A program made the position numbers and the translations under genes. This document shows, piece by piece, positions 22,218 to 47,420 of a stretch of 48,637 bases of DNA. The DNA comes from Paraglaciecola hydrolytica (lineage in GTDB: Bacteria; Pseudomonadota; Gammaproteobacteria; Enterobacterales; Alteromonadaceae): assembly GCF_001565895.1 (NCBI RefSeq), contig NZ_LSNE01000002.1:47029-95665 (forward strand), written 5' to 3'. Below the pieces are notes generated by a model. It saw nothing but the letters and a program-made list of their open reading frames with translations. It made no database searches and was not told the origin of the DNA. Each line of letters opens with the position of its first letter. Within the stretch, counting starts at the first letter, position 1.

Positions 22218-22246
22218 AAAAAAGCGCTCATTGAGCGCTTTTTTAT
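22218..22246. terminator. Bidirectional terminator between manB and the cytochrome operon
   Basis: GCGCTC and GAGCGC form the stem, flanked by six A on one side and six T on the other, so it can terminate both the plus-strand manCB transcript and the minus-strand cytochrome operon that ends just downstream. Confidence 0.85.
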
Positions 22247-22269: not shown

Positions 22270-23781
22270 TTATTTTTTCACATGCAGCATGTATTTAGCG
22301 ACAGCCAAACGTGTTTCGGCATCTAAATAGTTTTGCGGTGGCATTTCTGGATAATCGTCACGTTTTTTAGTTGGATTAGCAATAAACTCAGCCAGACCTT
22401 CAGGGTTATCCATGTATAAGGCTTGGATAATTTGCACTGGAGGACCAATCATTCTACCGGTATAAGTATGGCAACCTGCACAGATACCCAAGTAAGCAAT
22501 CTTGCCTTTTTCACTGGGGTCTATTACACGAGCTGGTACAGGTTCATCAAGGATGTAAGTATCAATACTGTCAGTATTAGTGAATTCACACTCTTTCCAG
22601 TTATCGACACCTACCGTGACATATTGGTGACGGTTGATAATACAACTATCACGGCTGCCACCTACACGAATAATATCGGGTTTTCCTTGTTTGAATTCGC
22701 TCAACATAAGAGCTTTGACTTCATCAAGCGTATCGTAGCCGTTATTATCCATAAGGTTGTTTAGGATCATTACCTTGTCTGGTTTGGTATCCGATTCAGG
22801 GTCGATGGTGACATTAGGCGCATTTTCATGATCGGTAATCACAATGCCGGCAGTCTTGTTGCCAGTGATAATATTATCTTCGATGATTACTTCATCGGCT
22901 GCCATCACCAAAATACCCGTACCTGCTGGTATGCCAGCAACTGTCGAGCCCGGGGCACCGAAGTTAGGGGTATTGTTATTGGTAATAAAATTATTACGGA
23001 TGATGACATCAAAAGTAGTTTTAATCGGTAAGCCTGGGGTAATAAAAGCTAGTACACCACCGGTGTTGTTGTAGACCATATTATTTTCAACAATGGCGTG
23101 ACGACTGTTTTCAATCTCAATGCCTGCGACAGAATCAAACACTTCATTGTGAGCAACTTGGATGTTATCGCTCATGCCAATATAAATAGCAGCATCTGAA
23201 ATACCCGAAACAATGTTGTATTCAACCAGACCATTTTTGCCTAATTGGGGGAAAATCCCATAAACCCCGGTATCTACAATAATATTGTTACTGATTTCAA
23301 AGTTATTTCCGGCCTGGCCCATAATACCGTTACCTTTGTAGCGGGTAATTTTTAGGTTTTTTACAATAACATTGTTACCAGAATACAAGATGGCGTCGTT
23401 CAACTTACCTTGACCATCTAATACTGCTCTTTTTCCTTCAACGATAACCCCGATAAGATGGATATCATCTTTATCGATATACACAGTTTCATGGTAGGTT
23501 CCGGGCATAACTTGAATCGTATCGCCTGGCTCGGCTAATTTGACCGCTTCCATAATAGAAGAGCCGTCTTTTACTACGTGAGTCTTACCTTCGACAGTAC
23601 GCGCACTAACAGGTGAATTTCCTGAATTTTGTTGCTCTGCGTTTTTATCATAACCGCCAGCATAACTAGCACCGCCACCATTATTGATGACAAAATTATC
23701 ATTTGAGCCACCTTTGCCTAAAAATATGCCGCCAGAAAAGGCTGCAGCTATCAGCGCCACACTTAAAAGTTTTGTTTTCAT
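22270..23781 (-). CDS. Periplasmic parallel beta-helix protein fused to a cytochrome c domain
   Basis: The N-terminal signal or anchor (about 1-22) and a short Gly/Asn linker are followed by a right-handed parallel beta-helix, about 65-370. It begins GDTIQVMPGTYHETVYI and continues with repeats such as NNVIVKNLKI, NNFEISNNII, DNIQVAHNEVF, RHAIVENNMVY and VIIEDNIITGN. A mono-haem cytochrome c domain closes the protein, with CAGCH at 434-438 and a likely distal Met in YPEMPPQNYL. The helix part resembles the TIGR03805-like family as I remember it. The ribosome site GGGAG lies inside the end of the upstream peroxidase gene and the two are two bases apart, so it is the third gene of a coupled operon. 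Beta-helices usually bind or cleave polysaccharides; the attached haem suggests electron exchange with the partner cytochromes. The function is unknown. Confidence 0.85.
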   Translation of the reverse strand: MKTKLLSVALIAAAFSGGIFLGKGGSNDNFVINNGGGASYAGGYDKNAEQQNSGNSPVSARTVEGKTHVVKDGSSIMEAVKLAEPGDTIQVMPGTYHETVYIDKDDIHLIGVIVEGKRAVLDGQGKLNDAILYSGNNVIVKNLKITRYKGNGIMGQAGNNFEISNNIIVDTGVYGIFPQLGKNGLVEYNIVSGISDAAIYIGMSDNIQVAHNEVFDSVAGIEIENSRHAIVENNMVYNNTGGVLAFITPGLPIKTTFDVIIRNNFITNNNTPNFGAPGSTVAGIPAGTGILVMAADEVIIEDNIITGNKTAGIVITDHENAPNVTIDPESDTKPDKVMILNNLMDNNGYDTLDEVKALMLSEFKQGKPDIIRVGGSRDSCIINRHQYVTVGVDNWKECEFTNTDSIDTYILDEPVPARVIDPSEKGKIAYLGICAGCHTYTGRMIGPPVQIIQALYMDNPEGLAEFIANPTKKRDDYPEMPPQNYLDAETRLAVAKYMLHVKK

Positions 23782-23783
23782 TT

Positions 23784-24983
23784 TTATTCTCCCTGGTTTA
23801 CTAACATTGTTTTGTTGTTATAGCTGTCATCTACTGGCGACAGGCCGGAGGGCACTATCTTAGGTATTTGAGGTGTTAACGTTTCATCTGTTAATGAGCC
23901 TAAAAACTCGACAATTAAGTCGACTTCTTCAGGACTCAAATTGGGCTCCCATATATGCCAGTGAAGAAGCAGCTTTTCATCTGGCGGTACAGCGTGGCCT
24001 CGTCCTTTATTGTAAAACTCCACAGATTCTTTTAAATCGCTAAAATTTCCTGCGTGCATGTACGGCGCCGTTTTAGTGATGTTGCGTAGGGTAGGGACTT
24101 TAAATCCACCACGTAATTGGGCCGCGTTATAGGTCTTTTGTGCGCCAATATCGAAGGGAACGCCTTCTTTTTCGGCTACACCAATAACGGCAATTTGATT
24201 ATTAGTAAATAAGGGCGGTTGATGGCATTCGGCGCAGCGCGCCACAAAGGAGCGAAAAATGTTTAAACCGGCTACTTCATTATCGCTCAGCGCTTGATGA
24301 TAGCCATGAGCATAGTGATCATAACGACTATTAAGGGAGATTAAGCTAGTTTGAAATGCCGCAAGTGCTTCAACCAGTTGATTGAGATCAATGTCATCGC
24401 TGTCTGGAAAAGCTTGTTTGAACAACTCTGGGTAGTATTCATTAGATTTTAAACTACTCAGTAATTGCTGAGGATTGTTACCCATTTCTTTAGGGTCAAA
24501 TAAAGGACCGACGGCTTGTTGTTCTAAAGTGGTCGCGCGTGCATCCCAGAAAAACTTATCCAAAAACGCCACATTCCACAAACTTGGAGCCGAGCGAGCC
24601 GCCTTGGCATGGTTGATTCCGATACTTTGTTCCAAACCATCGCTTAAACCTTTGTCTGGTCGGTGGCAACTGGCGCAGGAAACGGATTGGTCTGCTGATA
24701 ATAAGGGATCAAAAAATAACAAGCGCCCTAAATCGATTTGATTTGGGGTAAAACCATCCCGGTTTGGTGGCAATGATGTTTGTGTGCCACCCAGCCCACG
24801 GTTTTGTACTGAATCATACATTTGATAAAAGCTCACCAGTTTACATGTGCCTTCTGTAGTTAGTTCAAAACTGGGTGGGCAATGTTGATTGAGTTCAAAT
24901 CTAAGGTTTTGTTGTGCAATAACGCCACTGTTTGGCATTAACAACGCCGTTAGTAGAGCTAAAGTGACAAACAGGTAACGCAT
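23784..24983 (-). CDS. Di-haem cytochrome c peroxidase / MauG-like protein
   Basis: A secreted 399-residue protein with a signal peptide (about 1-23). Two haem c sites are present, CASCH at 103-107 and CAECH at 250-254, with the late PYMHAG motif (M309, H310) that supplies an axial ligand in many family members. A cysteine-bearing N-terminal segment (HCPPSFEL, then GTCKLVSFY) is an addition not found in classical CcpA. RDGFTPNQIDLGRLLFFDP and WDARA are conserved family runs. The family includes hydrogen peroxide reductases and MauG, which modifies a partner protein; which applies here is open. It is separated by two bases from both neighbours, so the three cytochrome genes are translated together. 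Confidence 0.9.
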   Translation of the reverse strand: MRYLFVTLALLTALLMPNSGVIAQQNLRFELNQHCPPSFELTTEGTCKLVSFYQMYDSVQNRGLGGTQTSLPPNRDGFTPNQIDLGRLLFFDPLLSADQSVSCASCHRPDKGLSDGLEQSIGINHAKAARSAPSLWNVAFLDKFFWDARATTLEQQAVGPLFDPKEMGNNPQQLLSSLKSNEYYPELFKQAFPDSDDIDLNQLVEALAAFQTSLISLNSRYDHYAHGYHQALSDNEVAGLNIFRSFVARCAECHQPPLFTNNQIAVIGVAEKEGVPFDIGAQKTYNAAQLRGGFKVPTLRNITKTAPYMHAGNFSDLKESVEFYNKGRGHAVPPDEKLLLHWHIWEPNLSPEEVDLIVEFLGSLTDETLTPQIPKIVPSGLSPVDDSYNNKTMLVNQGE

Positions 24984-24985
24984 GT

Positions 24986-25606
24986 TTATTGCTGCTCGCT
25001 AATAAAAAACACAATATCCTGCAACTCTTTATCTGAGACAGCATTAGCCATCATGGCCATTTGACGACCGTATTTGTCATCTTGGTGGGTGCCTCTAATG
25101 CCTTGTTGATAGTTCGCGATTTGGCGGAGTAAATATTGGGGATCCTGACCGGCTAATTTGGGCGCCTTGAACGTAGGGTTACCTTGAGCTTCTCCACCAT
25201 GGCAAGCACCACATTTAGCTTGGTAATAACGAGAGCCGTTTTTAAGGTCGCCTTTAATCGTGCCTTTGACAGATACCGCTTCGAAACTATTGATATAGCT
25301 TAAAAGTTGTTTGGTTTGTTCTGGATCACTAAGTTGTTTGGCAAAAGGAACCATCATTTTACCATGGGTATCACGTGGATCGTTTGCCCGTAAATCAGAG
25401 GCAAAATGTTCGATCTGGGTTTGCAAATACCAATCAAATTGACCAGCAAGTGAGGGGGCATTTAAGGCGCTGTTACCTTGTCCCTGCTCACCATGACAGG
25501 CACTACAAGTTTGATATGTCGTTTTACCTTGGTCGGCAAATGATGGAAAATGCAACATCATAATTAAGCTGCTTAATATTAACTTACCCCAAAAAATTTG
25601 TTTCAT
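24986..25606 (-). CDS. Di-haem cytochrome c, c4-like
   Basis: A secreted 206-residue protein with a signal peptide ending near FADQ. Two similar halves each carry one haem: CSACHGEQGQG (C34, C37) and CGACHGGEAQG (C132, C135). Each half has a PxLAGQ motif (APSLAGQ, APKLAGQ) and a Met that can serve as distal ligand, which is the c4 arrangement. It should carry electrons in the periplasm, probably to the adjacent MauG-like protein. The ATG with AAGG seven bases upstream is preferred over a GTG two codons earlier. First gene of the three-gene cytochrome operon. Confidence 0.92.
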   Translation of the reverse strand: MKQIFWGKLILSSLIMMLHFPSFADQGKTTYQTCSACHGEQGQGNSALNAPSLAGQFDWYLQTQIEHFASDLRANDPRDTHGKMMVPFAKQLSDPEQTKQLLSYINSFEAVSVKGTIKGDLKNGSRYYQAKCGACHGGEAQGNPTFKAPKLAGQDPQYLLRQIANYQQGIRGTHQDDKYGRQMAMMANAVSDKELQDIVFFISEQQ

Positions 25607-25770
25607 CGCCACACCTTAGTCTTAACTTATGGTGGCGACTATAGGCTACAAAATGCATTAGTTCTTACGGAAAGCTAGAAAACTCTGACGAATTCCAAAA
25701 TAACTCAGAGCTTTTTTGATTAACTCAGTGTTAACAGAACAAAAACATATCGCTAAAATCATTGGAATTA

Positions 25771-25876: not shown

Positions 25877-26923
25877 TCAGTTGTGCTGATTACGATACTC
25901 AGTGGGGGTAATACCATATTTATTTTTAAAAGCTTTGTTGAAAGAACTTAAACTTCTAAAGCCACTGTCTAAGGCGAGGGTCAATACCGGTAATTTTTGC
26001 TCTTCGTTTTGTGCCAGTTTTTCGGCAACTTCTTGAATACGATAAAAATTTAAAAAATCATTAAAATTACGGTAATTTAGTTCGCCGTTTATAAGGTGGC
26101 GCAGCTTGTATTCGTGGATCCCAAGGTGGCGAGAAAGTGTACTAATGGTCATGCCTTCTTCTTTATACAACTTATCTTTTTGCATGCAATCCAATATACG
26201 TTTTAACTCTGGTGAGTGTTTAGCTTTTGTCGTGGGGCTAGTCTTCTTAGCGATGGCTATATCAAATAAAGTGCCTTCTTTTAAGGCAAATAATAAAAAG
26301 TTAATCACCATTAACATTAAACACAATAGTGCGTATTTAACCGTTTCTAACCATAACCATTGCCAGTGAAACAGTTGCTCGATGACGATAACTATCACTA
26401 TATAAATGGCCACAAAACCTATAACACTGACTCTGACATAGCGGCGTTCTTGCACTAAATCTACATCACTATGTCTGATGGCTTCGATTAAGGCATGGCT
26501 GATTAATACCAATTCCAGCGCCAGCGCACCATAAGTTACTAAGCCAAAAAAGGCCGGGTAATGATGTAAGTCATAATTAAAAATAATTTGCGATATATTG
26601 GCTAGAGTCGGGACGACTAGCGTCATTGACGCCACTAAATAATGCCATGGCTTGGGTTCATGGCGATCGGCAAATATGTTAAGTGAAACCAACCAAAACA
26701 TACCAGGTAGGGCATTCTGAGCTACAGAATTAAGCCACCAAACAATAGACAATTTTTCTAGGGGGCCAAACAGCGGAGAGAGTAAATAGCCACAACCACA
26801 GAGCATTAACCCAATAAAAAGCAAGATCGTACGGTTTTGTTTAATACCAGAGAATAACAGTACTCCACACATGAGCATTAAGGCGAAATCTAAGTGGGCA
26901 AAAAATTGGGAACTGGCAAGCAT
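25877..26923 (-). CDS. Membrane-anchored AraC family regulator
   Basis: About 225 N-terminal residues form roughly seven hydrophobic helices (such as FALMLMCGVLLFSGI, TILLFIGLMLCGCGYLL, FIAIYIVIVIVIEQLF-like, and YALLCLMLMVINFLLFALK). They are followed by a C-terminal AraC DNA-binding domain with two helix-turn-helices: MTISTLSRHLGIHEYKLRHLIN, and then DSGFRSLSSFNKAFKNKYGITPTEYR. Such proteins sense a signal in the membrane and bind DNA without release. It lies between a TonB receptor gene (upstream, with its own terminator) and the cytochrome operon (downstream), all on the minus strand. It is the natural candidate regulator of both. No strong ribosome site is seen at the start. Confidence 0.88.
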   Translation of the reverse strand: MLASSQFFAHLDFALMLMCGVLLFSGIKQNRTILLFIGLMLCGCGYLLSPLFGPLEKLSIVWWLNSVAQNALPGMFWLVSLNIFADRHEPKPWHYLVASMTLVVPTLANISQIIFNYDLHHYPAFFGLVTYGALALELVLISHALIEAIRHSDVDLVQERRYVRVSVIGFVAIYIVIVIVIEQLFHWQWLWLETVKYALLCLMLMVINFLLFALKEGTLFDIAIAKKTSPTTKAKHSPELKRILDCMQKDKLYKEEGMTISTLSRHLGIHEYKLRHLINGELNYRNFNDFLNFYRIQEVAEKLAQNEEQKLPVLTLALDSGFRSLSSFNKAFKNKYGITPTEYRNQHN

Positions 26924-27036: not shown

Positions 27037-29652
27037 CTAAAAATTGTATTTAAAATCAAGGCCTACTTCGCGACCGCGATTTATTCTGCCATAAGGCGTA
27101 CCAAGAACATTGGCAGTTAGACCGCCAATACCTTCAATGTAGCGCTCATCCGTTAAATTGCGTACCCATAATCCAGCTTCCAATGCTTCACTGCCGCTAG
27201 TCCATGATAGACGCATGTTGATATCTTTTTTGTCATAGAAATATTCTTTAACCGCTAATTGAAAATCGGTCAAATTGGCGGACTGATCATTGGTGTTTTC
27301 AACGTAGACATAATCAGCATGTAAACCGATCAAACCAAAATCAAAGTCATGAGCCCAATCGATCATAGCAGTATAGTTAGCAGAGGCGTCAAACGATGAG
27401 TTTTCGGCTGCTCTTAAGTCCCCATTGGCATCATAAAAAGACGGGCGCTCGACATCGGTTTTTCTGAAATCTGACACAATACCAAAACTTAGCTCATCGG
27501 TTGCTAGCCAGCGTAGGTCGATTTCAAGTCCACGAACCTCACGGTTTTCATTGATAATGCTAGGCACAGCCGTAGGGCTGCCGGGTTGTTTGGAATCAAT
27601 TGAGATCTGAAAATTATCCAACTGCGTATTATAGATGCTGATATTGGCGCTCAAACTTTTGTTTAATACCGCTTTATAACCAAACTCTAAATTGGCGCTA
27701 TCTTCTGGTGCAAAAGCCTTACCGCCTGCCGCCTGATTAATAGGTACTAAAGAATCAAATCCACCGGATTTGTAACCAGTTGAATAGGAAGCAAAAATCA
27801 TTTGGTCGTCAGTTAGTTCATAATTAGTCACTAAACGTCCAGTCACTTTGCCCCAACTGTCGGATGCAGTGATATCCACCATCGGGAATAATTGATTACC
27901 TACTCCTGGACGTTGTGCCACAAAAGTAGTTTCAGGGATGGTCCAGCTAAAATCTTTAGTATCTTTGGAATAACGAACCCCTCCCAATACGTGCCATTTT
28001 TCTGTGATGGCATAATCCACGTCAAAGTAGAGGCCCCAGTTGGTAAAATCACCGGTGTTAATGATGTTTTCTTGCCAAAATTGGCCGCTATAACTAGGTC
28101 CAAAAATCTCTGCTATGCCTAGTTGTTGAGAAACGATGTCATAAGTCAAATCACCGGTTGCTGATACAATTGCACCGCTCAAAGGCATGCCACCCATACC
28201 AATAGCTGCCATGATGGGATCTGCAAAACCTAAGGCATTAAGTGCTCCAGCCCATTCGTCACTGTTCCAAATATGGTCTAAAGGAAAACCTGAACCTTGG
28301 TAAAGTTGCTCAACTACACCATCAAAGGTCGCGCCTGGGCCAAACGCACCTTGTGCATGTGCATCACTATTACCACCAATAGCAGCAGCTAGTTCCTGAG
28401 CGAAAGAGCCTCGAATAACGTTGTTTAATTCACCTGTGGTTAATCTTGTGATGGTGTCAGCGGTAACATTTAATTCAGTTTGCTGGGCTACGTCTTCTTT
28501 AGAGTAAGAGAAACCAGCAACGGCGTTGAATTTTTTATTTACATAATTAAACTGTAACTCCGTATAAAGAATGCTGGAATCTTCATTGTTTGAGGTTGAA
28601 AAACTGCGGGTAATATCGCCTGTGCCATCGTCATCTTGACGGTTAATGGTTTCCCAGTCACGGTAACTTATTAGGTATTTCATCGATAATTCATCATTAA
28701 ATTGATGGTCGAGTTTAGCCGTTACACCATACATATCACGGGATTCCACCCCATCGCGCACATCGTTTTCTACCTCACCGGCAAAAGGTGTTTTACCTCC
28801 GTTGTAGGCGTATTGGCTTAAACCAATAGACAATGGCGGTGCTTGTTCTAAATCATCAAGATCTATCGAAAATTGAAATTCTGTATCGCCAGATACTTCC
28901 CACAATAAGGCAACTCGTGCCGCATTATGATGGCGCGCACCTGAGTCCCAAATTTTTGAGTTTTGGTTCCACTGTGGCTCTGAAATATTTTTAACAAAAC
29001 CATCCTGACTATTGGTTAACATATTGGCGCGCAAATAGACACTTTGCGACAAGGGCACATTGACCATGCCTTCGTATCGAGCAAGATTGTCAGTACCCCA
29101 ACTGCCTTTAATGAAACCTTCAAAGTCTTCAGTGGGTTTGCGTGGCAGAATATTAACAACACCCATTGCAGCATTGCGGCCAAATAAGGTGCCTTGAGGA
29201 CCTTTCAATACTTCGATTCGTTCTATATCAGAAAACAGCACGTTTTGTGCTGCTCGCGGCATATAAACGCCGTCGTAGAATGTGGCAGATGAGGGATCGC
29301 CTCCCGATGAAATATTGGGACTGGATATGCCGCGCATGCTTATACCGGATTGGGTCATGCTGTTATCGCCAAAATCAAAACCAGGAATAAATTTGTCAAC
29401 ATCACTGAGTAGGATAGAGGAGCTTTCTTCTAAGGTGTCAGCGCTAATCGTACCAACAGTAATAGGGACTTTCATCACGTTTTGCACCCGCTTTTGCGAG
29501 GTTACTTCGATGACTTCAAATTCATTGCTGTGTTTTTCCTGTTCGGCGGCATAAACAAGACTTGAACTGCATGACAATGCCAAGAACATTGCCTGGGCAA
29601 TAAGGCACTTTTTAGTTTTTATTGTACTTTGGCCTTTTGCTATTTTCGTCAT
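27037..29652 (-). CDS. TonB-dependent outer-membrane receptor
   Basis: An 871-residue outer-membrane barrel with plug domain. The signal peptide (about 1-35) ends near VYAAEQ. A TonB box, EVIEVTSQKR, follows, then the plug with GISMRGISSPN, DGVYMPRAAQ and IERIEVLKGPQGTLFGRNAAMGVVN. The barrel ends in the typical terminal aromatic (DFKYNF). Sequence style (many Asp/Asn loops, RNAAMGVVNI) matches the large group of receptors that marine and sphingomonad bacteria use for diverse organic ligands rather than classical siderophores. The substrate is not predictable. AGAGGA precedes the ATG by eight bases. It probably belongs functionally with the AraC regulator and cytochrome operon downstream. Confidence 0.92.
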   Translation of the reverse strand: MTKIAKGQSTIKTKKCLIAQAMFLALSCSSSLVYAAEQEKHSNEFEVIEVTSQKRVQNVMKVPITVGTISADTLEESSSILLSDVDKFIPGFDFGDNSMTQSGISMRGISSPNISSGGDPSSATFYDGVYMPRAAQNVLFSDIERIEVLKGPQGTLFGRNAAMGVVNILPRKPTEDFEGFIKGSWGTDNLARYEGMVNVPLSQSVYLRANMLTNSQDGFVKNISEPQWNQNSKIWDSGARHHNAARVALLWEVSGDTEFQFSIDLDDLEQAPPLSIGLSQYAYNGGKTPFAGEVENDVRDGVESRDMYGVTAKLDHQFNDELSMKYLISYRDWETINRQDDDGTGDITRSFSTSNNEDSSILYTELQFNYVNKKFNAVAGFSYSKEDVAQQTELNVTADTITRLTTGELNNVIRGSFAQELAAAIGGNSDAHAQGAFGPGATFDGVVEQLYQGSGFPLDHIWNSDEWAGALNALGFADPIMAAIGMGGMPLSGAIVSATGDLTYDIVSQQLGIAEIFGPSYSGQFWQENIINTGDFTNWGLYFDVDYAITEKWHVLGGVRYSKDTKDFSWTIPETTFVAQRPGVGNQLFPMVDITASDSWGKVTGRLVTNYELTDDQMIFASYSTGYKSGGFDSLVPINQAAGGKAFAPEDSANLEFGYKAVLNKSLSANISIYNTQLDNFQISIDSKQPGSPTAVPSIINENREVRGLEIDLRWLATDELSFGIVSDFRKTDVERPSFYDANGDLRAAENSSFDASANYTAMIDWAHDFDFGLIGLHADYVYVENTNDQSANLTDFQLAVKEYFYDKKDINMRLSWTSGSEALEAGLWVRNLTDERYIEGIGGLTANVLGTPYGRINRGREVGLDFKYNF

Positions 29653-41489: not shown

Positions 41490-41515
41490 AACCCGCCAAC
41501 TGGCGGGTTTTTTTT
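41490..41515 (+). terminator. Terminator of the sdh-suc operon
   Basis: AACCCGCC and GGCGGGTT stem with a four-base loop and eight following T, 23 bases past the sucD stop. Its T-run overlaps the stop codon of the convergent cupin-like gene. Confidence 0.92.
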
Positions 41516-42581
41516 ATTTTATCTGACTGGCCAACCACTGATGAATAAAATGGCTCACTGGCTTTGCTTGTTCCCCTAATATGCCTTGAGCTGCTTTGGG
41601 GATATGGGCTATGGCACTTTCATCCTGATTAAATAGATAATGTTGCATGATACTTTGCCAGGCTTGTTGTTGATCTATTGGCATGTTTTTGAACGCCTGC
41701 AATGCATGGATCAACATAGGAAAGGGCAACTGACTGGAAACATAGTTATCACTCCACCAGTAATTAATAAGCACGTTAAAGGGGGATAACGACTCAACAT
41801 GGTGCCACCAAGGAGTGGGTATGTATATCGCATCACCAGCTTCTAATTCTACAGACAATGCGTTGGCATAGGCTTGTTCATATAGAGGGAATTGGCTTAA
41901 ATCTGGGGCGCGTAAATTAACTAGACTGATGGGTTGTCCGGCTGGAGTAAAGTCTAGTGGACCGATATAGAGATTCTTAATTTGTTCTGGCTGAAACAAA
42001 GTGAAACGCCTTTTACCAGCGGCTACTACGGCAATATTATTTGCTTCATCAAAGTGTGCAGGGACAGTTACCTTGTTACCAATCCAAATAAATGATTGGG
42101 TATTTGGCAGTAATTTATTAGGTAGCTGGGCAATAAGTTCAGGATAATTTTGTTTAAGGCTCACAGACTGCAAGCAATACCGCGTTTTATTATCCTTTTC
42201 TAACATAAGATCGATGCTGTCACTTAATGTACTATTTTTGACAGTAAAGTTTTTACCACTCAAGTCATGGTTATAAAAAAGTCGCCCCAAGGTATCTTCT
42301 GGCAGACTGATTAACTTTAACTTTTGTTGATGATCAAAACCCTTTAAATATTCAGCGGCTAGAGCAAGGGATTGTTGTGATTTTTTAACTATTTCCCAAT
42401 CGGCGGCAAAATTTTTGAGTATCAGAGGTTGATAACTTTGATTAATTTTTTCGTTAAAATTATCTATCGTTACGTCACTCACACTAGCTGGAGAGGGGAG
42501 GTTTTCTAATTTGGCTAATTCAGCCTGACGTTTTTTGAGCATAGTTTTAAACTGTAGGTAAACACCTAACAACGGTAGCAT
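41514..42581 (-). CDS. Cupin-like (JmjC-type) protein of TonB/halogenase loci
   Basis: A 355-residue cytoplasmic protein with a cupin_8/JmjC core. The iron-binding HxD is in PAHFDEANNIAVV and the distal histidine is in PTPWWHHVESL. IWIGNKVTVPAHFD and GKRRFTLFQPEQ are family runs of 2-oxoglutarate/Fe(II) oxygenases such as the Pass1-like proteins found beside TonB receptors and tryptophan halogenases in Xanthomonas, Caulobacter and Alteromonadales. A hydroxylase role is likely, the substrate unknown. It is divergent from the receptor gene across a 367-base gap with two operator-like sites. Met14 is an alternative start; neither has a strong ribosome site. Confidence 0.85.
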   Translation of the reverse strand: MLPLLGVYLQFKTMLKKRQAELAKLENLPSPASVSDVTIDNFNEKINQSYQPLILKNFAADWEIVKKSQQSLALAAEYLKGFDHQQKLKLISLPEDTLGRLFYNHDLSGKNFTVKNSTLSDSIDLMLEKDNKTRYCLQSVSLKQNYPELIAQLPNKLLPNTQSFIWIGNKVTVPAHFDEANNIAVVAAGKRRFTLFQPEQIKNLYIGPLDFTPAGQPISLVNLRAPDLSQFPLYEQAYANALSVELEAGDAIYIPTPWWHHVESLSPFNVLINYWWSDNYVSSQLPFPMLIHALQAFKNMPIDQQQAWQSIMQHYLFNQDESAIAHIPKAAQGILGEQAKPVSHFIHQWLASQIK

Positions 42582-42772
42582 ATTTTATTATTCAATAGGC
42601 AATACAACTGCTTGAATCGATGCTGATGCATTCGTATTCAAACTGTACATAGTCTTATCTTTGGATTTTCTCAACAATAAGCCACTCATTTAACTCACGG
42701 ATTAACAAGCCATTTACATTTTGATGTTGAGTTTTCTTCATGAAGTTCTGATGTTTTATTTGTGAGGGGTTC

Positions 42773-42818
42773 TGAATACGTATGCATTAAGTCAGGGCCA
42801 CTTTTGAATACGTATGCA
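42773..42818. promoter_or_regulatory. Two identical LacI-type operator-like sites
   Basis: TGAATACGTATGCA occurs twice (42773-42786 and 42805-42818), start to start 32 bases apart, about three helix turns. Each is a near-perfect palindrome around a central CG, the hallmark of LacI-family operators. They lie between the divergent cupin-like and TonB receptor genes. A possible promoter (TTGAGC at 42824-42829, 18 bases, TAGGAT at 42848-42853) follows. A CTTCATGAAG palindrome (42736-42745) is also present. The rest of the 367-base gap shows nothing else I recognise. Confidence 0.65.
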
Positions 42819-42948
42819 ATGCATTGAGCAATGAGTCGTACTGCCTGTAGGATCCTGTCTAGAACAACAAAAGTGTAACAATTGAAAACAGTTTATTAAC
42901 GTTTTCAACTAATTACATCTTTAACTTTCAAAAGCACGGGACTCACAC

Positions 42949-45783
42949 ATGAAAAATTTTAAACCAAATCTAATAAAAGCCGCTCTAATTACCAGCGGAT
43001 TTGCCGTTGGTATGACACCAGCACTGGCACAAGAAAGTGATGTACAAGACGAAAACTTAGAAGTCATTCAAGTTTCAGGTATTCGTGGCAGCTTAATGCG
43101 TGCTCAAGCTTTGAAAATGGATAATAGTTCCATCGTTGAAGTGTTGTCGGCTGAAGATATCGGTAAATTACCTGATACCAGTGTGGCAGAGTCATTGGCT
43201 CGTTTGCCGGGTATTGCGGGTGAACGTCGGAACGGTCGTACCAGTGGTTTATCGATTCGTGGTTTTAACGAAAACTACGTTGGTACTTCATTAAATGGTC
43301 GTGAATTATTAGGTATGGGTGATAACCGTGGGGTTGAATATGACCTTTACCCAACTGAAATCGTAACCAATGTTGTGGTGTATAAAACCCCAGAAGCAGG
43401 ATTAACCACGCAAGGTATTGGTGGTACTGTTGATTTACAAACCATCAAGCCTTTAGGCCAAAAACGCACTATCGCGTTTAATGCTGATTATGAGCAAAAC
43501 GGCCAAGATTCAGCTAACCCAGATTACGACAATAAAGGACACCGTTTGTCTTTTAACTATGTAGATTCTTTTGCCGATGACACTATTGGTTTAGCTTTAG
43601 TTATCGCTTCAATGGAAACCCCGCGTCAAGAAGAGCAATTCCGTGGTTGGGGCTATGCAACGGTAAATCAAGATTCTGATCGCCGTGCAACGGATAGCGT
43701 TGCATCTTCTGCTGGTGACGTAGTCTCTGGTGGTCATGATTCATTTGTACGTTCTGCCATGATGGAGCGTGATTCTATTGCTGCCGTAGTACAGTGGGCA
43801 CCTTCAGATAAATTAAATGTGCAACTTGATGCACTTTATATCGATTTCTCAGAGAACGATGTTAGACGTGGTTTGGAAGAAGGCGGTGCCGAATGGGGCA
43901 CTGGCGCTTATAACATTACTGGTGTAGAAGACGGTTTAGTCACTTCTGGTTACTACGATGGTTTTTATTCAGTCATTCGTAATGACGGCCGTAGTCAAGA
44001 TGCTGAGCTTTCAACTATAGGGCTTAATGTTGAATATCAAATCAATGATAATTGGTCAGCGGTATTGGATTATTCTACTGGCAAAGTTGATAAAACCATC
44101 GCCGACATTGAAAGTTATTCTGGTGTAGGCCGTGCTGGTATTGATGGACGTCCGATTACTGCACGTTCTTGGCAACAAACGTCTACTGGCGTGGTGTTTT
44201 CTGACCACCCGACTATGGCACCTCTTGATTTAACTGATCCAAGCATTATTACTCTTGCGGGCCCACAAGCCTGGGGTGGTAGCTTAGATCCAGTCGCCGC
44301 TTTTCAAGGAGTAGATGGTTTTGCACCGAATACAGCTCAAGATGGATTTGTTAACAAACCTGTTTTTGCCGAAGATTTAGATAGTTTGCGTTTAGAAATA
44401 AACGGTGCAGTTGATTGGAGTATTTTTACGCAATTTACCGCTGGTGTGGTTTATTCAGAAAGAACCAAATCTAAAGTAAACAATGGTGCCTATTTAACCG
44501 CTCCAACATGGCCTAGTGACGGCCCTATCCCTGATGTACTGGGTTATGCGGACCTAAGCTTTTTAGGCATTAAAGGTGTAGTTGCTTATGATGGTTTAGC
44601 CTTGTACAACAGTGGTTACTATATTGCTACTAATGCCGCTGATCTTGAAACCGGTCGTTTGGGTGATACCTACGAAGTTAAAGAAGAATTAACCACTGTC
44701 TTTGCGCGTTTAGACATCGATACCGAAATAAGTGGTATGTATTTACGTGGTAATGTGGGTGTGCAAGTGGTCAGTGCTGATCAAAAATCATTTGGTTTTG
44801 GTACGGTAACGGGTCCAACGCGTTATGTTGATGCAACCCCGTTAGAAGGTGGTGATTCTTATACTGACGTATTGCCTACTTTAAACTTAAGCTTAGAAGT
44901 GGCGGATAATCAGTTTGTACGTACCGGTTTATCTAAAGTATTAACTCGTCCACGTATGGATGACATGCGTCCTAATACAACAGTCAGTTTCTCATTCAAT
45001 GACAATACTATATTAAATCCGAATGTAGGTCAGGGACCGTTTTCTGGTAATGGTGGTAACCCATTATTGAAACCTATTGAAGCCAACCAATTTGACTTAA
45101 GCTATGAAAACTATTTTGCTGAAGATGGATTTTTCGCGGTTAGTTTCTTCTTTAAAGATTTGAAAAACTGGCATGAGACAGGTATCACGGTATCTGACTT
45201 CTCTGAATACTACATTCCTGGTTATCACGATTCTTCGGATTTAACGGATAATCAACCACCAGCCACTTTCCTTGGTACTGTGACTTACCGTCAAGACGGT
45301 TTACAAGGCACAGTTAAAGGGTGGGAATTGCAAGGTAGCATTCCAATGTCTATGTTGCATGATTCACTAGAAGGCTTTGGTGTTGTTGCCAGCGCAACCT
45401 TCTTAGACGGTGAATTTGATGATGGTTCACAAATCCCTGGTTTATCAGACGAAGCTTATAGCTTAACCGCTTATTACGAAAATAGTGGTTTTGAAATACG
45501 TTTATCCGGTACTAAGCGTAGTAGTTTCTTGTCAGAAACTCGTGGTATTAGTTTGTCTTTGGTTAATGCCACTGACAACGGTGGTGAGCTGTTAGATGCT
45601 CAGATTGGCTATGACTTTAGCGAATCTGGTATCGAAGGACTAGAAGGTTTGCGTGTTACGCTTAAAGGCCAAAACTTGACAGATGAGCCTACCATTCAAT
45701 CTAACGGTGCTGATGCTCGCCAGATCACTCAGTACCAAAGTTACGGCCGTAACTTCTTGTTAGGTTTGAACTATAGCTTCTAA
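42949..45783 (+). CDS. TonB-dependent receptor of the Xanthomonas/Caulobacter type (TIGR01782-like)
   Basis: A 944-residue outer-membrane receptor. The signal peptide ends near ALAQES. The plug starts with VIQVSGIRGSLMRAQALKMDNSS, followed by LPDTSVAESLARLPGI, SIRGFNENYVGTSLNGRELL and GIGGTVDLQTIKPL, all typical of the large TIGR01782 group linked to carbohydrate uptake. The barrel ends LGLNYSF. It lies next to two halogenase-like genes and a divergent cupin, the usual company of this receptor class. The ligand is unknown, but LacI-type sites upstream point to a sugar or sugar derivative. The ribosome site is AGCACGGGA, about nine bases before the ATG. Confidence 0.93.
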   Translation: MKNFKPNLIKAALITSGFAVGMTPALAQESDVQDENLEVIQVSGIRGSLMRAQALKMDNSSIVEVLSAEDIGKLPDTSVAESLARLPGIAGERRNGRTSGLSIRGFNENYVGTSLNGRELLGMGDNRGVEYDLYPTEIVTNVVVYKTPEAGLTTQGIGGTVDLQTIKPLGQKRTIAFNADYEQNGQDSANPDYDNKGHRLSFNYVDSFADDTIGLALVIASMETPRQEEQFRGWGYATVNQDSDRRATDSVASSAGDVVSGGHDSFVRSAMMERDSIAAVVQWAPSDKLNVQLDALYIDFSENDVRRGLEEGGAEWGTGAYNITGVEDGLVTSGYYDGFYSVIRNDGRSQDAELSTIGLNVEYQINDNWSAVLDYSTGKVDKTIADIESYSGVGRAGIDGRPITARSWQQTSTGVVFSDHPTMAPLDLTDPSIITLAGPQAWGGSLDPVAAFQGVDGFAPNTAQDGFVNKPVFAEDLDSLRLEINGAVDWSIFTQFTAGVVYSERTKSKVNNGAYLTAPTWPSDGPIPDVLGYADLSFLGIKGVVAYDGLALYNSGYYIATNAADLETGRLGDTYEVKEELTTVFARLDIDTEISGMYLRGNVGVQVVSADQKSFGFGTVTGPTRYVDATPLEGGDSYTDVLPTLNLSLEVADNQFVRTGLSKVLTRPRMDDMRPNTTVSFSFNDNTILNPNVGQGPFSGNGGNPLLKPIEANQFDLSYENYFAEDGFFAVSFFFKDLKNWHETGITVSDFSEYYIPGYHDSSDLTDNQPPATFLGTVTYRQDGLQGTVKGWELQGSIPMSMLHDSLEGFGVVASATFLDGEFDDGSQIPGLSDEAYSLTAYYENSGFEIRLSGTKRSSFLSETRGISLSLVNATDNGGELLDAQIGYDFSESGIEGLEGLRVTLKGQNLTDEPTIQSNGADARQITQYQSYGRNFLLGLNYSF

Positions 45784-45808
45784 AGCAAACACTAGGGTTT
45801 ACGCTGGC

Positions 45809-45835
45809 AGTCTCGTAGCAACTCGCTACGAGACT
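45809..45835 (+). other. Perfect 11-pair hairpin after the receptor gene
   Basis: AGTCTCGTAGC and GCTACGAGACT are perfect complements around AACTC, 25 bases past the receptor stop. No T-run follows. A separate normal terminator lies 43 bases on. It may protect the message or bind a protein. Confidence 0.6.
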
Positions 45836-45878
45836 AAATTTCTAATTAGGGGCAGCACGTTGTTGAACCCATGTCTTA

Positions 45879-45908
45879 CCCCAGTTAGCATAGCAACTGG
45901 GGTTTTTT
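45879..45908 (+). terminator. Terminator between TonB receptor and halogenase
   Basis: CCCCAGTT and AACTGGGG stem around eight bases, followed by six T. It ends 15 bases before the halogenase start, so the halogenases would be expressed only by read-through or from a promoter I do not see. Confidence 0.85.
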
Positions 45909-45923
45909 AATTATTAGCGAACT

Positions 45924-47420
45924 ATGCATAAACCAATAAAAAAAGTCGTCATTGTAGGTGGGGGAACAGCCGGTTGGATTTCCGCTGCCTTACTCAAAAA
46001 AGTAATTGGGGCTCCTATTGATGTTGAACTCGTAGAGTCGGAATCCATTGGTACAGTGGGAGTGGGGGAAGCCACCATTCCGCCAATTCGCTTGCTTAAT
46101 AATGTATTGGGTTTGAATGAGTCAGAATTTTTGGCTAAAACCAAAGGTACTATCAAACTGGGCATTCAGTTTGAAAACTGGCGAGTCGAAGGTGAAAGTT
46201 ATTTTCACTCCTTTGGGGCAGCTGGCAAAAGCATGGCTTTTTGTCATTTCCATCATTTTTGGCAACGAGCGCAATCTCTGGGTTTAAATACGAGCATATG
46301 GGATTACGACTTAAATTATCTGGCCGCTAAAGCAGGCAAGTTCGCACAAATAAACAGTAAAGATCCCATCATAGAACTGCCTTACGCCTACCATTTTGAC
46401 GCAGGTTTATACGCCAAATATTTACGTGAAGTCAGTGAGCGTATGGGCGTACTGCGTACCGAAGGTTTGATAGAACACGTTGAACAAGATAAAGACAGCG
46501 GTTTTATTAGTACCTTAGTACTACAAGACGGCCGTAAAATTGCCGGTGATTTGTTTATAGATTGCTCTGGGTTTCGAGGATTGTTGATCCAGCAACAGCT
46601 CGGTGCAGGTTTTGATGACTGGAGTCACTGGTTACCTTGTGACCGCGCCATAGCCGTGCCCTCAGAACGTCATGCCACTACACTACCTTACACTCGCTCT
46701 ATTGCCCATGCAGGCGGTTGGCAATGGCGTATTCCTTTGCAACATCGTAACGGTAATGGTGTGGTCTACAGCAGTCAGCATTATTCACAGCAACAAGCCT
46801 TAGATTTGTTATTGAATAATCTTGATTCTAAAGCCATAGGTGAGCCTAATTTTATTAAGTTTCAAACGGGGCGCCGCCGCCAGCAGTGGGCTCGTAATGT
46901 GGTTGCTGTTGGCCTATCCAGTGGCTTTTTAGAGCCATTAGAATCAACCAGTATTCATTTAATTCAATCGGCCATTGTCCGTTTGATCCACATGTTTCCT
47001 CATCAAGGTATTAAAGCCATTGATGTGGCTGAATATAATCGCCAGTCCAAAGTTGAATATGAGCAAATACGTGATTTTATTATTTTGCACTACCATGTGA
47101 ACGAGCGTAACGACAGCCATTTTTGGCGCGATTTACGCAACATGGAAGTGCCCGATAGTTTGCGGCATAAAATTGAATTGTTCAGAGCCACGGGCAGATT
47201 GTTTCGTGAGCAAAACGATTTATTCCTCGAAAGTTCGTGGTTGCAGGTGTTGGTGGGGCAGGGAATAGTGCCACAAGATTATCACCCCATTGCCAATAAC
47301 CTGAGTAAAGATAAGTTGTTTGAGATGCTCAATACCATTCAAGCCATTAAAAATGAACCTTTGGCAAAATTACCAAGCCACGATGACTTTTTACAATCCT
47401 TTTGCACTAAGCCAAACTAG
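45924..47420 (+). CDS. Flavin-dependent tryptophan halogenase-like protein (first copy)
   Basis: A 498-residue FAD-dependent protein of the tryptophan halogenase family (PF04820). The FAD loop is VVIVGGGTAGW (8-18), and GVGEATIPP follows. K78 in KLGIQFENW matches the catalytic lysine (K79 of PrnA). The W-x-W-x-I-P signature is WQWRIP (266-271). The glutamate of PLES (E340) corresponds to E346 of PrnA. All residues known to be needed are present, so it is probably active as a halogenase, likely on a non-tryptophan indole or other substrate, as in related TonB-locus enzymes of Xanthomonas. That substrate view is inference. No ribosome site is obvious; the ATG follows the receptor terminator. 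Confidence 0.92.
   Translation: MHKPIKKVVIVGGGTAGWISAALLKKVIGAPIDVELVESESIGTVGVGEATIPPIRLLNNVLGLNESEFLAKTKGTIKLGIQFENWRVEGESYFHSFGAAGKSMAFCHFHHFWQRAQSLGLNTSIWDYDLNYLAAKAGKFAQINSKDPIIELPYAYHFDAGLYAKYLREVSERMGVLRTEGLIEHVEQDKDSGFISTLVLQDGRKIAGDLFIDCSGFRGLLIQQQLGAGFDDWSHWLPCDRAIAVPSERHATTLPYTRSIAHAGGWQWRIPLQHRNGNGVVYSSQHYSQQQALDLLLNNLDSKAIGEPNFIKFQTGRRRQQWARNVVAVGLSSGFLEPLESTSIHLIQSAIVRLIHMFPHQGIKAIDVAEYNRQSKVEYEQIRDFIILHYHVNERNDSHFWRDLRNMEVPDSLRHKIELFRATGRLFREQNDLFLESSWLQVLVGQGIVPQDYHPIANNLSKDKLFEMLNTIQAIKNEPLAKLPSHDDFLQSFCTKPN

Follow-up and report, generated by a model that had tools for sequence, protein, structure and literature searches.

A MauG-class di-haem enzyme and a haem-fused beta-helix protein encoded side by side: a possible periplasmic oxidation unit in Paraglaciecola hydrolytica

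What might a MauG-class enzyme oxidise when its closest companion is a beta-helix protein carrying a haem of its own? The question is raised by three minus-strand genes in a stretch of 48,637 nucleotides from Paraglaciecola hydrolytica (contig NZ_LSNE01000002.1), referred to here as the window, which amounts to 48.6 kb of a 5.22 Mb genome in 20 contigs. On the open reading frame (ORF) map of the window, the genes run from a c4-like di-haem cytochrome c (24986..25612) through a MauG-class di-haem enzyme of 399 amino acids (23784..24983) to a 503-amino-acid protein that joins a TIGR03805-type right-handed parallel beta-helix to a C-terminal haem c domain (22270..23781), with gaps of 2 bp and 2 bp between them. 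An earlier note on this DNA had described a coupled three-gene operon with two-base gaps at this place; the map bears the description out and supports treating the three genes as one coupled unit, the cytochrome being given here from its GTG start (25612) rather than from the alternative ATG (25606) that the note had chosen. The answer offered, tentatively, is that the enzyme and the beta-helix protein form a periplasmic two-protein oxidation unit, in which the enzyme would oxidise either a residue other than tryptophan or a bound ligand of the beta-helix protein, the haem c of the latter would serve as an electron port, and the cytochrome would be an optional shuttle. No description of the unit was found in the full-text literature searched, whose coverage is thin for subscription journals.

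The pair and its distribution

Of the 88 loci compared, 7 from relatives, 80 from a homologue search and 1 from a plasmid record, 87 have the MauG-like and beta-helix genes side by side. The search query was the whole window beta-helix protein, which builds in some bias to full-length forms; at least three genomes are in the set twice (L003/L016, L004/L022, L007/L030), and 86 alignment rows remained once identical sequences were removed. The sole exception is Ruegeria pomeroyi, where a TPR-protein gene lies between the enzyme and beta-helix genes. This alphaproteobacterial unit, with its inserted gene and a divergent AraC gene, sits on the megaplasmid of strain DSS-3 (L096:6076-10302), and no paper was found on the locus tags around it, which were derived by counting back from cuyZ = SPOA0157, as that gene is named in the available part of PMC4334477.

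Occurrence tells the same story as adjacency. The full-length beta-helix protein (E <=1e-184) and the MauG-like enzyme (E <=1e-60, a threshold set by us) are each present in 8 of 60 related genomes, and the two sets of 8 are identical, an agreement with a chance of about 4e-10 if genomes were independent, which linked genes in related genomes are not; four further genomes of the 60 hold partial beta-helix or haem-domain matches only. Enzyme and beta-helix distances are correlated (r = 0.80 over 3570 pairs, uncorrected for species relatedness), and the distribution is patchy, with the unit in 2 of 21 other genomes of the same genus. Paraglaciecola algarum is the top-ranked named relative among the matches listed (80% identity in the beta-helix protein), from which very near records may be missing. 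Judged by this co-occurrence, enzyme and beta-helix protein behave as an obligate pair.

The c4-like cytochrome is a looser associate. It has two haem motifs (CSACH and CGACH) and two PF00034 stretches, the two cytochrome c domains looked for in a cytochrome c4, and in 53 of 88 loci a same-strand homologue precedes the MauG-like gene. That figure is a lower bound, because the gene could not show up in the short stretches of L002-L008 and of several loci at contig ends. Two CxxCH motifs are found in 49 of these 53 homologues and one in 4, and the loci without it belong mostly to SAR92/Porticoccaceae-type genomes or are cut short. The c4 gene is thus an optional member, and of the conserved three-gene order that the earlier note had proposed to check, the MauG-like/beta-helix half stands while the cytochrome half stands only in part. 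Since the beta-helix protein is the only near-constant partner of the enzyme, it is the leading candidate for what the enzyme acts on.

The enzyme and the haem-fused beta-helix

A Pfam scan places the enzyme in the CCP_MauG superfamily (PF03150, 183.6 bits, cut-off 25.6), and its homologues have two CxxCH motifs at 85 of 88 loci, three at one and none at two, where the haem-site columns are gapped. Both haem sites, CASCH at residues 103-107 (24663..24677) and CAECH at residues 250-254 (24222..24236), are kept wherever they can be read: C103, C106 and H107, like C250, C253 and H254, are present in 84/84 ungapped rows of 86, as is the inter-haem tryptophan position, W146 (84/84 ungapped). Position 324 (24012..24014), whose Tyr324 is the predicted axial ligand of the second haem, is tyrosine in 85/85 ungapped rows of 86. 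The enzyme aligns without gaps to residues 261-298 of MauG (3l4m; whole-chain E 2.2e-9), so as to set Tyr324 on MauG Tyr294, and the stretch round the second-haem distal ligand has MauG as its best match (E about 2e-9). The same column holds methionine, the classical axial ligand, in aligned bacterial cytochrome c peroxidases such as 1zzh, which are nonetheless the best whole-chain PDB matches of the enzyme (1zzh, E 4.2e-44). According to the available part of PMC6405878, MauG and BthA both have Tyr-His ligation of the 6-coordinate haem, whose coordination has long been seen as the reason why MauG differs in function from classical peroxidases. The alignment therefore supports an assignment to the MauG class, by a predicted Tyr-His second haem, rather than to the classical peroxidases.

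Within that class the enzyme is, on its profile scores, neither MauG nor MbnH. It reaches 189.1 bits against a cut-off of 443.85 for MauG proper (TIGR03791) and 211.9 against 362.85 for MbnH (TIGR04039), the best-scoring NCBIfam family yet below its cut-off. Alignment and tree rows show marks of the group's own: an N-terminal Cys35/Cys47 and a C-terminal HWH motif at 341-343 (23955..23963), the latter in 86/86 rows and not at that place in 7/7 outgroup enzymes, which may be a docking or channel site. In a tree, 20 enzyme rows form one group against the 7 outgroup enzymes (support 98/97), with very long outgroup branches and a warning of false joins from the tool.

The fusion proposed for the third gene is equally real. 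Profile scans give 184.4 bits for TIGR03805 (cut-off 141.5) and 84.5 bits for PF13229, the two models with which the earlier note had wished to see the beta-helix checked; the NosD copper-protein model (TIGR04247) reaches 54.2 bits against a cut-off of 300. The C-terminal haem domain lies under threshold in Pfam (PF13442, 20.7 of 27; PF00034, 20.6 of 21.3). Its CxxCH, CAGCH at residues 434-438 here (22468..22482), is kept in 86/86 aligned homologues, so that the site has not been lost, and takes the form CTGCH in 42, CAGCH in 41 and CSGCH in 5 of the 88 loci; M480, the presumed sixth haem ligand, is kept in 85/85 ungapped rows of 86. Such constancy of motif and ligand means that the haem domain is no accident. 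C380 and C398 are likewise kept in 86/86 and probably form a disulphide. TIGR03805-like segments were also met inside larger frames of ~850-1050 amino acids (G084, G097, G171; L009-L011), apparently another beta-helix architecture.

An AlphaFold2 model of the beta-helix protein has a mean predicted local distance difference test score (pLDDT) of 85.8, with most of the helix above 90 and the haem loop (435-443) below 50. In its strand register M154, F177, Y200 and E222 occupy successive rungs of one sheet, a face that we read from the model as a putative ligand- or partner-binding groove. The nearest folds in Foldseek are the AlgE4 epimerase (E 6.4e-7), GH28, PL6 and chondroitinase B; sequence identity in the 50 rows listed is 10-16%, and among them the highest target-normalised TM-score (0.72) belongs to the alginate lyase 6kfn. 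These folds would fit a possible carbohydrate-like ligand and do not show it.

The face is shared with a haem-less sister family. A phylum-wide search of 398 genomes gave 44 with a match, of which 37 were weaker matches and 7, the own genome among them, were full-length haem forms (>700 bits). Forty regions round matches were fetched, two of them from a separate TIGR03805 search; the ORF filter recovered the beta-helix gene in 31, and the 9 of 40 control loci in which the filter lost it were dropped. A MauG-like gene adjoins the beta-helix gene in 6/6 haem-form loci of this control set, at least three of which repeat loci of the 88-locus set, and in 0/25 haem-less loci within the mapped stretch. 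A two-CxxCH protein is the neighbour at 17 of the 25 haem-less loci (a map count; 13 by a stricter automatic count), 8 being without one, and the four such neighbours scanned were all TIGR03806, the SO2930 family. In hhalign, SO2930 meets the MauG-like enzyme only in a short match at one CxxCH (probability 61), and the haem domain of the beta-helix protein likewise only round the CxxCH, so that the partner seems to have been exchanged and not simply to have diverged; a homologous swap between SO2930 and the MauG-like enzyme was ruled out on the same grounds. A search for TIGR03806 found none among the scanned window neighbours and no match in the own genome, but the control genomes were silent too, so absence is not shown.

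The face itself outlasts the change of partner. Y174, D196, Y200, E222 and E224 are identical in 86/86 haem and 25/25 haem-less proteins, and around them a set of positions separates the two forms, the haem-less K, Q, Y, D and Y (25, 25, 25, 24 and 23 of 25) giving way in the haem form to M154, M203, F177, N151 and H318 (86, 86, 86, 86 and 85 of 86). Tyrosines Y101 (84/86) and Y148 (85/86) are specific to the haem form, the commonest residue of the haem-less form there being S or T, and are on sequence grounds the first candidate residues for oxidation. The haem-less form has an invariant tryptophan (25/25) within an insertion that is absent from the haem form. Four haem-less genes (L097, L165, L172, L177) lie beside or near TonB receptors, and L097 also has an SO2930-family partner with alcohol and aldehyde dehydrogenase genes nearby; the sister system may thus share an uptake theme. 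In the literature searched no function was found for this haem-less TIGR03805 family, whose neighbour is often TIGR03806; a TIGR03805 protein occurs within a Burkholderia exopolysaccharide cluster in which the part of PMC3584217 available names no haem protein, and the neighbourhood of the SO2930 tag number suggests that this family might be linked to extracellular electron transfer.

Possible chemistry and its rivals

If the enzyme behaves as MauG does, peroxide, or O2 together with electrons from the c4 cytochrome, would charge it to a high-valent di-iron state, in which it would dock on the beta-helix protein and pull electrons from it. Their source could be a non-tryptophan residue such as tyrosine, which would be turned into a redox cofactor, or else a ligand bound in the conserved groove; the haem c at the C-terminus would be the port between groove, enzyme and cytochrome, and the receptor, where present, would import the ligand. 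That Pseudomonas fatty-acid oxygenases have been grouped with the rubber oxygenase RoxA (PMC4496055, in the part available), members of the wider family thus working on small hydrophobic molecules, leaves a small-molecule substrate also open. A more ambitious version, in which this is a further MauG-class maturation or oxidation system whose enzyme builds a non-tryptophan (for example tyrosine-derived) cofactor in the haem-fused beta-helix, or oxidises its ligand, to yield a haem-coupled beta-helix oxidoreductase of a new kind, fed by its own TonB receptor, must be considered unlikely.

Several observations weigh against the two-protein oxidation unit, in which target residue and ligand are both hypothetical. 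The beta-helix protein has no conserved tryptophan, 14 of 86 homologues having none at all, and W395, the only one in the window protein, is W in 23 of 86; this rules out a beta-helix tryptophan as the enzyme's conserved target and commits the proposal to another residue or a bound ligand. Of the partner-residue oxidation that the earlier note had envisaged from MauG, a conserved beta-helix tryptophan accordingly falls away while a non-tryptophan residue stays in play. The cytochrome offers no substitute, W61 being W in 11 of 54. Tyrosine at position 324 is not unique to the group, as it occurs in 7/7 outgroup enzymes, and given that BthA turns over peroxide, a protein substrate does not follow from tyrosine ligation. 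In the SAR92/Porticoccaceae loci compared, both the c4 gene and a window-type receptor are missing from the fetched stretch, so that neither can be essential, and among the neighbour clusters examined no gene of catabolism or biosynthesis turns up repeatedly in unrelated lineages. Finally, the structure model of the enzyme is haem-free and of modest quality (mean pLDDT 72).

The main rival, which we consider rather improbable, is that the enzyme is a periplasmic peroxidase engaged in peroxide scavenging, with the c4 cytochrome and the beta-helix haem as its donors and the beta-helix only an anchor at a surface or polymer. The PF03150 match, the c4-type donor in 53 of 88 loci, the peroxidases that head the whole-chain PDB matches, and the peroxide turnover by BthA despite its tyrosine ligation (PMC6405878, in the part available) are all in keeping with it, but the classical axial methionine has been replaced by tyrosine in every ungapped row, scavenging calls for no beta-helix partner whose strand face is invariant, and confinement of the enzyme to the 8 of 60 genomes that have the beta-helix protein would not be expected of one. 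Polysaccharide cleavage or epimerisation by the beta-helix, with uronate polymers as substrate, the haem incidental and the haem proteins serving something else, is the least likely of the alternatives considered: the modelled fold has AlgE4, GH28, PL6, chondroitinase B and 6kfn as its nearest neighbours, but right-handed beta-helices resemble one another and identity is low, the haem form has M154, N151 and F177 where the haem-less form has the polar K, D and Y, and the strict pairing with a di-haem enzyme would be left unexplained.

Acquisition of a metal, presumably copper, in the manner of MbnP/MbnH or CorA/CorB is only marginally less doubtful than a lyase. Here an oxidised beta-helix residue would make a metal site and the receptor would import the metal complex, an idea that draws on MbnH as best-scoring family, on the NosD-like match of the beta-helix, and on the nearby receptor, given that, in the available part of PMC3621798, a methanobactin receptor gene is frequently found near the MbnP/MbnH pair, whose role is there termed a mystery. 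Against this, both the MbnH and the NosD scores are far under cut-off, a true MbnH/MbnP pair is encoded elsewhere in the genome, and the copper-site kynurenine of CorA derives from tryptophan, with CorB proposed as its oxidiser (PMC3912023, in the part available), whereas the beta-helix protein conserves none. M154, M203 and H318 look too distant in strand register for one metal, and a copper site from M154/M203/M293/H318 was ruled out on that register, a reading of ours made without coordinates. The two-protein oxidation unit is thus the reading retained, in a tentative spirit.

Neighbouring genes and known systems

Upstream of the operon, on the same strand, lie genes for an AraC-family regulator with a hydrophobic N-terminal half (25877..26923; PF12833) and a TonB-dependent outer-membrane receptor (27037..29652; PF00593/PF07715), and a predicted bidirectional terminator, a pattern match only, lies 3' of it (22218..22244). 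At some of the loci an AraC-family homologue likewise precedes the c4 gene. Of 80 loci, 23 have a relative of the window receptor (488-1277 bits) close to the pair, either downstream of it or, in one or the other orientation, upstream; receptors of 243-303 bits in 10 of the 80 were excluded from this count, since those near haem-less loci score 61-297. The best other stretch of the own genome reaches 103 bits, a stretch score and not that of a whole protein. At a threshold of E <=1e-100 the receptor is present in 7 of the 60 related genomes, 6 of them within the 8 carrying the pair, while one (G035) has a window-type receptor of 690 bits without the pair. Neither this receptor nor the haem-less sister system figured in the earlier note.

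Other neighbours are less telling. SAR92-type loci have SDR, thioesterase, CoA-transferase and acetoacetate-CoA ligase genes in common, which were set aside as shared synteny of the clade, and aldehyde dehydrogenase relatives in 10 of 80 loci (7 + 3) were not taken as a link, a judgement made without a background test. At L022:11553-13133 the unit is followed downstream by a gene for a CHASE5-domain sensor histidine kinase, which has relatives at 8 of 80 loci, chiefly in genomes of Colwellia/Thalassotalea type, and was not seen in the window. Elsewhere in the window (41514-47420), cupin-like, large TonB-dependent receptor and flavin-dependent tryptophan-halogenase-like ORFs were seen by eye side by side.

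MbnH performs tryptophan chemistry on its partner. To our knowledge, MauG and MbnH are the characterised members of the class that act on a partner protein, both on tryptophan. With MbnH/MbnP (TIGR04039/TIGR04052) and CorB/CorA the window unit shares a MauG-like di-haem enzyme adjoining a partner protein of its own, in many cases with a TonB receptor nearby; it differs in its sub-threshold MbnH score and in a partner that is not a WxW-type MbnP and conserves no tryptophan. The one MbnP match of the genome (176.3 bits, cut-off 140) lies on another contig, C18, beside a true MbnH of 477 bits (L202:4989-6951), in overlapping genes flanked by two large ORFs of 992 and 939 amino acids, which makes the window unit a separate system.

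The sister pair, TIGR03805 with TIGR03806 (SO2930), has the same beta-helix family, the invariant face, a two-haem c cytochrome as neighbour and, in some cases, a TonB receptor nearby, but its beta-helix is haem-less and its partner barely matches the MauG-like enzyme. The comparison suggests two unlike di-haem partners for one and the same beta-helix face, and both systems could be tested together. BthA, the Burkholderia di-haem enzyme, is also a tyrosine-ligated MauG relative without a mau operon (PMC6405878, in the part available), but has serine at the inter-haem tryptophan position and no partner protein named in that text, whereas the window enzyme keeps W146 and has a beta-helix partner encoded alongside.

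Likeness to MauG and methylamine dehydrogenase extends to the two haems of the CCP_MauG type, the predicted Tyr-His second haem, the inter-haem tryptophan and a dedicated partner. No mau-like neighbour genes were seen by eye among the window ORFs, and no conserved tryptophan of the partner offers a Trp-Trp substrate; the enzyme further differs from MauG in its low TIGR03791 score and its extra Cys35/Cys47 and HWH motif. MauG acts on two tryptophans of its partner (PMC6405878, in the part available), while here the partner is a haem-bearing beta-helix without a conserved one. More broadly, a conserved and widespread MauG-class pair of this kind asks what else MauG chemistry can do.

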